Positions 10,789 through 13,084 of a DNA stretch of 32,166 nt are shown piece after piece. Below the pieces are notes generated by a model. The model did not search any database. It was given only the letters and a program-made list of their open reading frames with translations, and was not told the DNA's origin. Each line of letters starts with the position of its first letter. Positions within the stretch are counted from its first letter, which is position 1. Both the position numbers and the translations under genes were made by a program. Origin of the DNA: Singulisphaera sp. GP187 (GTDB lineage Bacteria; Planctomycetota; Phycisphaerae; Phycisphaerales; SM1A02); NCBI GenBank assembly GCA_945868805.1, contig CAMBMO010000025.1, positions 1 through 32,166 of the forward strand, in the 5' to 3' direction.

Positions 10789-12441
10789 ATGACGAGTAAA
10801 CCAAACACACGAAAGCGTGCGAAGGACGCAACGCTCGATTCTGATTCGCCAGCGTTGCCCGTTGAGGCAACTGAATCGAGCGTCGAACTCTTTGGAGCCG
10901 ACGCGACCCCGGCTCCGTACCAAGTCTTCGCTCGTCGATACCGCTCTCGATCGTTCGACGAGGTTGTTGGTCAGGACGCGATCGCCCGAACCCTCCGGAA
11001 CGCGATTGCCCTCGGACGAACCGCGCACGCGTATCTCTTTTGCGGAACGCGCGGTGTCGGAAAGACCTCGATGGCACGCATCTTCGCCCGAGCGCTCAAC
11101 GCGGTCGATTCGCTCTCGCAGTGCGACGCCATTGGCGATTCGATCATGCGAGGTCAGGACTTGGATGTCGTCGAAATCGACGGCGCGAGCAACCGAGGCG
11201 TCGACGACGCGCGCGATCTCATCGCGGGCGCGGGGATGACTCCTGCACGAAGTCCCTACAAGATCTACATCATCGACGAAGTCCACATGCTGACTCAGCC
11301 CGCGTTCAATGCGCTGCTGAAGACGATGGAGGAACCGCCGCCCCATGTGAAGTTCATCTTGTGCACTACGGAGCCTCACAAGGTTCCAGCGACAATCCAG
11401 AGTCGGTGCCAACGATTCGACTTCCGGTCGATTCCAACACTGGCGATCGCGGGGCACTTGCGCAGTGTCTTGGCGAGCGAGAAGTTGACGGCCGACGATG
11501 CCGTCGTGCTTCAGGTTGCCCGGTTGGCGAATGGATCGATGCGCGATGGACTCAGCCTGCTTGATCGATTGGTGTCGGCAGCGAGCGGACATGTCTCGGT
11601 CGCATTGGCGCGGGATGTACTCGGGCTGCCCGACGAGGAATTGCTCGAGTCGATCCTCGCCGCGATCGCCGACGGCGATGCTGGTCGAGGACTCACCGTC
11701 GCGGCCTCGCTCCTCGAGCAGGGCATGTCGTGCGACCACGCGATCGACACCATTGCAGGTCGATTGCGCGACGCGCTCCTTCTGCTCGTCTGCGGCACCG
11801 AGAGCGAGTTGGTCGAGCTTCCTGCCGAAGTTCGTGCGAAGATGGCGGCACACGCCGCGAAGTTCGACGCTCCCGCGCTAGTTCATCTGATCGCGCTCTG
11901 CGACGCATCGGTTCGCAATCTGCGAGGGTCTGCGGTTCCTCGCGCACTCTTCGATGCGGTGATCGCCCGGCTGTGCATGTCTGAGCACTTCGTCAGTGCG
12001 GCCACGTTGCTTGCGGGCGATGGATCGTCGCAAGGATCCAAAAAAAAAATAATTGACGGTTCTCGCGCTCTCCCGGTTGGGCAGGACACGACGAAGTCCC
12101 ATTCCACCTTCTCTTCACAGCAGCGCGCTCCAATGAAGTCGCTCGCCGACGAGCCCGGCAGAATTGTGCCAGTTGCTTCCGTTGCGCAACCCACCACAGC
12201 GGTCACTCAGCCAACGCGAGTCGATCCTCCCCGACAAATCGATTCCGAGGATCCTGCGAATGCGACACTCAAGAGCCCGTCCGTTCGACCCGATCAAGAG
12301 AGCGATGCCATCCGCCGCCACGCGCTTGTCCGTGAGGCCGCAGAGATCTTCGACGCTGCGGTCAGCCGAGTAACGCCTCGAGCGGCGACGCGGGCCGATT
12401 CAGTTGAGTCGTCGAAAAATCCCTCGAAAGGGCAGCTCTGA
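10789..12441 (+). CDS. dnaX: DNA polymerase III subunit gamma/tau
   Basis: This is the clamp-loader ATPase of the replisome. The 550-residue product has Walker A GTRGVGKT (86-93), Walker B IYIIDE (159-164), TMEEPPPHVKFILCTTEPHKVP (179-200) and the SRC arginine-finger motif (205-207). The N-terminus is about 40 residues longer than usual before the YQVFARRYR block. The zinc module normally found between Walker A and the DG/DAASNRGVDD motif has four cysteines; here only C112 remains. Around codons 418-420 the gene has ten consecutive A residues, with stops right behind in both other frames. Slippage would give a 420-422 residue gamma-like form, while the full frame gives a tau-like form. The 130-residue extension is low-complexity but ends with HALVREAAEIFDAAVSRV, resembling the conserved DnaX C-terminal block. 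The stop is 1 nt before recR. Confidence 0.95.
   Translation: MTSKPNTRKRAKDATLDSDSPALPVEATESSVELFGADATPAPYQVFARRYRSRSFDEVVGQDAIARTLRNAIALGRTAHAYLFCGTRGVGKTSMARIFARALNAVDSLSQCDAIGDSIMRGQDLDVVEIDGASNRGVDDARDLIAGAGMTPARSPYKIYIIDEVHMLTQPAFNALLKTMEEPPPHVKFILCTTEPHKVPATIQSRCQRFDFRSIPTLAIAGHLRSVLASEKLTADDAVVLQVARLANGSMRDGLSLLDRLVSAASGHVSVALARDVLGLPDEELLESILAAIADGDAGRGLTVAASLLEQGMSCDHAIDTIAGRLRDALLLLVCGTESELVELPAEVRAKMAAHAAKFDAPALVHLIALCDASVRNLRGSAVPRALFDAVIARLCMSEHFVSAATLLAGDGSSQGSKKKIIDGSRALPVGQDTTKSHSTFSSQQRAPMKSLADEPGRIVPVASVAQPTTAVTQPTRVDPPRQIDSEDPANATLKSPSVRPDQESDAIRRHALVREAAEIFDAAVSRVTPRAATRADSVESSKNPSKGQL
12040..12049 (+). promoter_or_regulatory. Poly-A slippage site in dnaX, candidate programmed frameshift
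   Basis: Ten A residues follow GGATCC inside dnaX. In the zero frame they encode KKK then IID. A -1 shift reads AAT AAT TGA (stop 12054-12056), and a +1 shift reads TAA at once (12050-12052). An AAGGA that could act as an internal Shine-Dalgarno-like stimulator lies at 12032-12036. The design resembles dnaX of Thermus thermophilus (transcriptional slippage on A9) and E. coli (ribosomal -1 shift). Which mechanism applies here is not visible from the sequence. Confidence 0.72.
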
Positions 12442-12442
12442 C

Positions 12443-13084
12443 ATGGCGAGGCAGAGTGATGGACGCGGTCCGTATCCCGAGAGCGTCAATCGACTGGTCC
12501 AGGCTTTCTCGGTTCTGCCCGGAATCGGTCGTCGGACGGCCGAACGGCTGGCGTTTTGGGTATTGAAGGCGTCGAGCGAGGACGCACTCGTCTTGGCGGA
12601 AGCGATCGCGGCGGTGAAGCGAACGGTGCGCCATTGTCCTATCTGCTGGAATCCAGCGGATCAATCGCCGTGTCACATCTGTTGCGATGCGAAACGGGAC
12701 GCATCGATCGTCATGGTCGTCGAGCAACCGAAGGACTTGATCAATCTCGAGCAGACGGGCATGTTTCGTGGTGTCTATCACGTGCTGATGGGACGGCTTG
12801 ACCCACTCGATGGAGTCGGACCCGAGAGCATTACGGCGAGTGACCTGCTCGCCCGAGCGGTCGATTCTCGTCGCAACGCACGCGAAGTTGAGATTCAAGA
12901 AATTGTCTTGGCGCTCAACCCAGATCTCGAGGGTGATTCGACTGGTCTTTACCTCGCCGAAATTCTGGCGAAGACCTCGATCAAGGTCACGCGCCTCGCA
13001 CGCGGGCTACCATCCGGATCGCAGATTGAATTCGCAAATCGCGCGGCACTCTCGGACGCAATTCTCTTACGACAACGCCTCTAG
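12443..13084 (+). CDS. recR: Recombination mediator protein RecR
   Basis: RecR works with RecF and RecO to load RecA at gaps. The 213-residue product has the helix-hairpin-helix VLPGIGRRTAERLAFWVL (24-41), a C4 zinc finger at C65, C68, C77 and C80, and a TOPRIM domain from about residue 88 (IVMVVEQPKDL, E94, to the GMFRGVYHVLMGRLDPLDG segment). Length and order are typical. The ATG at 12443 was chosen: it lies 1 nt after the dnaX stop, with a GAAAGGG ribosome-binding candidate at 12426-12432. A start at 12404 would only add 13 residues inside dnaX. The ybaB/yaaK gene that usually lies between dnaX and recR is absent here. Confidence 0.96.
   Translation: MARQSDGRGPYPESVNRLVQAFSVLPGIGRRTAERLAFWVLKASSEDALVLAEAIAAVKRTVRHCPICWNPADQSPCHICCDAKRDASIVMVVEQPKDLINLEQTGMFRGVYHVLMGRLDPLDGVGPESITASDLLARAVDSRRNAREVEIQEIVLALNPDLEGDSTGLYLAEILAKTSIKVTRLARGLPSGSQIEFANRAALSDAILLRQRL

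Follow-up and report, generated by a model that had tools for sequence, protein, structure and literature searches.

A ten-adenine run in dnaX of a Phycisphaerales bacterium as a probable transcriptional slippage site, and an apparent turnover of recoding modes among its relatives

The DNA analysed in the current work, referred to as the window, is the whole stretch of 32,166 nucleotides of contig CAMBMO010000025.1 (assembly GCA_945868805.1, Singulisphaera sp. GP187; order Phycisphaerales, class Phycisphaerae). It contains an open reading frame whose product was identified as DnaX by profile search (TIGR02397, E 9.4e-110, aa 44-396), and for which Pfam matches were obtained to the AAA domain, the lid and gamma/tau domain III, the last of these matches ending at aa 401. 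Beyond these domains the gene carries a run of ten A residues (A10), read in frame as AAA AAA AAA ATA and closely followed by stops in both other frames, the +1 TAA abutting the run and the -1 TGA starting four bases past the start of the TAA (Table 1). The run, both stops, the 130 codons onward in the zero frame and an AAGGA 3 nt upstream had been listed in a preliminary description of this DNA, and all of them were confirmed in the sequence. Transcripts with A9, A11 or A8/A12 are predicted to encode short products of 420, 422 and 421 aa, respectively (44.6-44.8 kDa), and those with A7, A10 or A13 long products of 549-551 aa (58.3-58.6 kDa). A Pfam search of the window's DnaX protein found no tau-tail domain, and the tail was therefore recognised by a motif model built in this analysis, which was trained on 97 zero-frame genes with runs of at least nine A's (A≥9), shifted-frame genes being kept out of the training. 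According to this model, the end of the tau tail is conserved throughout the sampled class.

Table 1. Coordinates of dnaX features in the window.
Feature	Position	Strand	Remarks
dnaX ORF, tau-like 550-aa zero-frame product	10789..12441	+	TIGR02397 and Pfam matches
AAGGA, SD-like	12032..12036	+	3 nt 5' of A10; not conserved, probably not functional
A10 run, putative slippage site	12040..12049	+	codons 418-420 and the opening base of codon 421 in the 550-codon dnaX
TAA stop, +1 frame	12050..12052	+	one A lost or two gained would give gamma of 420 or 421 aa
TGA stop, -1 frame	12054..12056	+	one A gained or two lost would give gamma of 422 or 421 aa
tau-only tail past the run, codons 421-550 (130 codons)	12050..12441	+	codon 421 opens with the final A of the run
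C-terminal tau motif HALVREAAEIFDAAVSRV	12319..12372	+	conserved; tail-model consensus contains RRHPLVREAMELFDATVVDVEP

The recR gene starts one base past dnaX (ATG at 12443; region 12439-13084; NCBIfam TIGR00615, E 1.2e-60), without ybaB/ebfC, which often sits between dnaX and recR.

When the window was shuffled, an A10 was expected 0.04 times per shuffle and at least one A10 was present in 3 of 100 shuffles, so that the window on its own is weak evidence against a chance A10. A scan of both strands of the assembly (2.5 Mb in 47 contigs, ~96% complete) returned the A10 of dnaX as the sole A/T run of ten, and as one of just two A/T runs of at least nine, the other being an A9. A first-order model with the composition of the window predicts ~7 runs of at least nine and ~1.6 of at least ten for this assembly, and rarity alone is for this reason not decisive; it is the comparison with relatives that is. 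The other A9 of the assembly (L331 ~1497-1545; G000:C8 ~58800-58850) adjoins a GC-rich hairpin, and its opposite strand resembles the T-tract of an intrinsic terminator.

An alignment with dnaX of related Phycisphaerae had been proposed in the preliminary description as a check for a conserved A run, and such a run was indeed found. Among 19 genomes of the window's genus, a dnaX match was obtained in 18 (G017 having none) and the site was readable in 16, the contigs of G006 and G008 stopping short of it; all 16 carry the run, as A9 in 5 and as A10 in 11. Twelve of these 16 resemble the window in encoding the tau tail in the zero frame. In the remaining four (G002, G005, G015 and G018) the zero frame stops just past the run and the tail is encoded in the -1 frame; here slipping is the sole way of making the long protein, and no other comparative finding speaks as strongly for use of the run.

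The comparison was made for the class with the dnaX loci of 227 genomes, comprising 135 of the family (genus included), 44 of other families of the order and 48 of other orders; two family genomes with a dnaX match (G029 and G072) were left out as their contigs end before the site. The site was readable in 219 of these loci, the other 8 being too short, and was of the A≥9 type in 155, A7 in 42, A8 in 2 (counted in neither of the two mode groups described below), GGGAAAA in 8, CCCAAAA in 1 and unrecognised in 11. The 155 A≥9 runs consist of 126 A10, 28 A9, one A12 and no A11, and they occupy all three codon phases (37/74/44). As their length is held at ten while the codon phase drifts, selection acts at the level of the nucleic acid rather than of the encoded lysines. 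Besides the dnaX sites, just 2 further A/T runs of at least nine occur in these 227 loci, which together amount to 634,971 bases. The eleven genes without a recognised slip site are those of G033, of 7 genomes of other orders and of G052, G080 and G116, which represent 3 of the 7 readable members of genus g35; this pattern suggests that gamma production was lost in these organisms or proceeds by another route such as proteolysis, and gamma may be dispensable in some lineages. Outside the class, A≥9 runs were encountered in 7 of 69 loci (scanned stretch up to 660 nt), several of which are probably unrelated. Of the named relatives from other groups, Aporhodopirellula (L356), Gemmata (L352) and Schlesneria (L354) have an A9 or A10 at most 180 nt from the equivalent place. 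An A9 or A10 was also observed near the end of the clamp-loader domains in dnaX of Opitutaceae (L387 and L393), where a zero-frame stop lies close to the run, and of Bacteroidetes (L374 and L404).

The frames that follow the A≥9 runs were analysed for stops in 154 of the 155 genes, G156 being excluded because its motif frame is not open, and the expectation was derived from positions further downstream in these genes. Both non-tau frames are closed by a stop within 24 nt in 111 of the 154 genes, as compared to ~8.5 expected, and the single-frame counts are similarly raised for the +1 frame (131, expected 31.0) and the -1 frame (133, expected 34.1). A tau tail outside the zero frame was found in 19 A≥9 genes, 16 of which have it in the -1 frame and 3 in the +1 frame; in all 19 the shifted frame is open through to the tau motif. 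The +1 cases are G174, G199 (whose motif score is low, 13.7 bits) and G219, and these three calls hinge on the exact homopolymer counts in the assemblies. The occurrence of both shift directions among orthologs is described by Antonov et al. (2013) as a mark of transcriptional realignment (PMC3711429). Within the class sample, the tau frame of G132 was set to -1 by its longest open frame, its best motif match (21.5 bits) being in the zero frame, which is closed by a stop 15 nt past the site; the contig ends 360 nt past it.

These data bear on the explanation that the run is a chance event, a mutational remnant or an assembly error without function, tau alone being of importance to the cell. 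By composition a genome may well hold one A10, and in eleven relatives no site was recognised; the run is nevertheless kept in every readable genus member and in 155 of 219 class genes, the double stops far exceed expectation, tau is accessible only by slipping in 19 genes and long A/T runs are scarce elsewhere in the same loci, so that a functionless run is hardly tenable. An interrupted run with the frame kept, which the preliminary description had named as evidence against its proposal, is seen in a minority, 11 of the 219 genes being without a recognised site. On this comparative evidence the A10 in dnaX is not a product of chance, its conservation in relatives being decisive.

We consider the A10 to be probably a programmed transcriptional slippage site from which both gamma and tau are made (rough probability 0.8). 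RNA polymerase would add or drop A's while copying the run in a sizeable share of the transcripts; where the number of A's gained or lost is divisible by three, translation would yield full-length tau, the clamp-loader subunit of ~550 aa, and the other transcripts would meet the TAA or TGA at once and thereby specify a short gamma of 420-422 aa, which would keep the ATPase and domain III and be without the tail. Comparative support for these two products of a programmed site, which had been predicted beforehand as a gamma-like and a tau-like form, is strong at the level of sequence. The run, the stops, their conservation and the relatives whose tau can be made only by slipping are read directly from sequence, and slipping by the polymerase and not by the ribosome, the product ratio and the function of gamma are what we infer. 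Bacterial RNA polymerase is described to slip efficiently at nine A or T residues (PMC5009743; also PMC1088944).

Elements that would stimulate a ribosomal event were not apparent in the window. Downstream RNA structure was ruled out as a stimulator, since two fold tests gave z scores of +1.30 and -0.02, the former for positions 12054-12113, which fold no better than 186 of 200 shuffles. The AAGGA, which the preliminary description had pointed out upstream of the run, does not hold up as a Shine-Dalgarno (SD) stimulator either: it is just 3 nt away from the run, and any SD-like match up to 20 nt upstream is present in 3 of 16 genus members, at differing positions. No enrichment of hairpins or SD elements was detected at A≥9 sites.

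Ribosomal -1 frameshifting in E. coli dnaX involves the heptamer A_AAA_AAG, an SD element and a stem-loop, with the SD-like element in dnaX genes of this type being located ~10 nt upstream. Sites that resemble this arrangement were found in 51 relatives in the window's order, which carry a -1 slippery heptamer instead of a long A run: A7 in 42, GGGAAAA in 8 and CCCAAAA in 1. All 42 A7 sites are in the single phase that gives A_AAA_AAA; the 8 GGGAAAA sites and the CCCAAAA site were chosen by phase and provide no evidence on it, whereas the A7 sites were not so chosen. The heptamers of all 51 end in an AAA codon (A_AAA_AAA, G_GGA_AAA and one C_CCA_AAA), and an in-phase A_AAA_AAG was found in none of the 219 readable class genes. 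Near stops in both frames are present at 3 of the 51 sites (0.8 expected). Among the 17 of these genes whose zero-frame product is tau (tau-first), 15 have a near -1 stop (2.9 expected) and 2 a near +1 stop (2.4 expected). Among the 34 that are gamma-first, a near stop is present in the zero frame in 33, which is partly so by definition, and in the third frame in 1 (6.0 expected), these numbers becoming 30 and 1 of 31 without G035, G160 and G165, which have no motif match and a longest frame of +1, and which were set to -1 by hand. Where the motif match of an A7 gene falls in a shifted frame, that frame is always -1 (23 of 23), some of the matches being weak. Weak -1 motif matches are those of G111 (1.7 bits), G122 (9.2 bits) and G173 (0.9 bits, its frame not open).

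A hairpin of -15 kcal/mol or below that starts 3-12 nt downstream was predicted at 48 of 51 frameshift-type sites versus 51 of 115 A≥9 sites; control positions within the same genes gave 85/153 and 131/345, respectively, the former proportion being that of GC-rich genes in which control positions also pass this threshold. When the 60 nt downstream were compared with shuffles, the mean z was -1.42 for A7 (n=42), -2.28 for GGGAAAA/CCCAAAA (n=9) and -0.25 for A≥9 (n=116). An SD-like pentamer starting 11-15 nt upstream is present at 22 of 51 frameshift-type sites versus 4 of 116 A≥9 sites of the order. From the contrasts in phase, stops, hairpins and SD elements, two mechanisms may be distinguished, the A≥9 sites resembling polymerase slippage and the A7-type sites ribosomal -1 frameshifting, with the window belonging to the first kind. 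In some genomes of genera g17 and g26, for example G034 (L101) and G043 (L038), there are A7 sites whose best fold pairs the two flanks of the slippery heptamer with each other, leaving the heptamer in the loop; this hairpin competes with the downstream one.

The existence of frameshift-type relatives bears on whether gamma in the window is made by E. coli-type programmed -1 frameshifting on the A run. This explanation draws on the apparent use of such a mechanism in the same order, on the A_AAA_AAA that is held in frame by the window's A10 and on the -1 stop; it is nonetheless unlikely, considering that the window is without a downstream hairpin and a conserved SD, that the A≥9 runs are spread over three phases where the A7 sites keep to one, that their +1 stops are enriched like their -1 stops, and that three A≥9 relatives have their tau in the +1 frame, where a -1 shift could not lead. 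Between the two mechanisms named in the preliminary description, transcriptional slippage is preferred on account of the absence of a phase constraint, the stops in both frames, the three +1 taus and the lack of a hairpin or SD signal, and the -1 ribosomal shift fits much worse. Ribosomal slipping may contribute, in that every phase of an A10 holds an in-frame A_AAA_AAA.

It is also conceivable, if quite improbable, that the ribosome slides on the poly(A) in both directions, in which case the short forms would arise from transcripts of uniform run length. Such sliding is established on iterated AAA codons in E. coli, and both stops would be accessible to it, yet E. coli ribosomes in the PURE system are described to slide robustly at A11 and little at A9 or A10 (PMC4363877), and it is A9 and A10 that the sampled class keeps. 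The want of A11 among the 155 runs is consistent with a run that is tuned to slip the polymerase and to spare the ribosome; the RNA-DNA hybrid of the Thermus RNA polymerase is given as 9-10 bp (PMC5009743).

Transcriptional slippage of this kind is described for dnaX of Thermus thermophilus, where it takes place on an A9 (via PMC1088944 and PMC5009743). The window is like this gene in that an A run of at least nine lies past the clamp-loader (gamma) domains, tau is encoded in one open reading frame and both other frames are stopped nearby, as well as in the proposed outcome, by which gamma would come from slipped transcripts; A≥9 sites likewise occur in any phase and without ribosomal stimulators. 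The window differs by having A10 rather than A9, by belonging to another phylum and by having relatives in which the default product is flipped. Antonov et al. (2013) list 17 dnaX genes of 12 genera, nine of them with A10, in which tau needs recoding (PMC3711429). The genes of G002, G005, G015 and G018 are of this type, with gamma in the zero frame at an A9 or A10 and tau in a shifted one, unlike the window's gene, which is tau-first and has a tau that does not need recoding, as it does in 4 of 16 genus members. All 17 of the listed genes are -1 at the DNA level (PMC3711429), as opposed to the 3 of 19 that are +1 here. An overlap of the 12 genera with the groups sampled here is possible, Chloroherpeton and Chlorobium being the sole names in the relevant section of that paper (PMC3711429). 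As regards E. coli, the gene and the outcome are the same, and the 51 order relatives share with it a -1 heptamer, in 48 cases a hairpin and in 22 an SD-like element; the window itself differs in having no in-phase A_AAA_AAG, no stem-loop and no suitably spaced SD. The window's dnaX site is best seen as a further example of the known Thermus-type slippage, the arrangement in which tau is made by recoding being covered by Antonov et al., and it is the turnover among relatives that is of interest.

This turnover was traced by parsimony on a tree of 219 DnaX sequences, which was inferred under LG+G4 with a quick search and rooted with the class's remaining orders; as a quick tree of one gene, it provides approximate numbers. 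At the minimum, the mode changed 8 times, 7 times from slippage to frameshift and once back, and the default product 20 times, 19 times from tau-first to gamma-first and once back; within slippage genes, 24 changes of codon phase and 16 of run length (14 of these from A10 to A9) were counted. Among 76 sampled genera of the order, 52 contain slippage genes only, 21 frameshift genes only, and 1 slippage genes together with loss, 2 are classed as other, and in none of the 76 were the slippage and frameshift modes mixed. One evenly poised reading is that, within one order, the switch was rebuilt in place about seven times, from polymerase slippage on A9/A10 to ribosomal -1 frameshifting on A7/GGGAAAA with a hairpin and often an SD, that the default between tau and gamma flipped about twenty times, and that the run is held at ten as the longest that slips the polymerase without the ribosome sliding, for which A11 is needed in E. 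coli. If true for the ten A's, the cell would separate two kinds of slipping by one nucleotide. A repeated swap of recoding mechanisms within one order was not found in the literature searched, most subscription journals lying outside it. Earlier comparisons involved distant organisms; with both modes side by side in one order, what causes the choice between slippage and frameshifting becomes testable. Genes with an out-of-frame tau tail are likely to be annotated as truncated.

Two candidate determinants of the mode were considered and rejected. According to Atkins et al. (2016), the two lysine tRNAs of Thermus may bear on polymerase slippage, AAG then being read tightly (PMC5009743). The gene of a CUU lysine tRNA was detected in 48 of 51 frameshift genomes versus 24 of 28 slippage genomes of the order's other families, and as it is frequent in both modes the presence of a second lysine tRNA does not separate them; ten of ten tRNA matches tested with ARAGORN were lysine tRNAs, six CUU and four UUU. 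Such a second tRNA may explain that AAG is never the shift codon, which fits AAG being held too firmly. The GC content at third codon positions (GC3) gave no clean split, the medians for the slippage and frameshift modes being 0.667 and 0.778 in the family and 0.785 and 0.771 in the order's other families.

Finally, the four-cysteine zinc module of DnaX (window ~11091-11165, residues ~101-126) appears to have been lost from the order to which the window belongs: all 106 family and order sequences that match a simple pattern have 0 or 1 cysteine at this site (66 others being unmatched), and 4-5 cysteines are present in 20 of 20 pattern-matched sequences from the other orders of the class (27 being unmatched).
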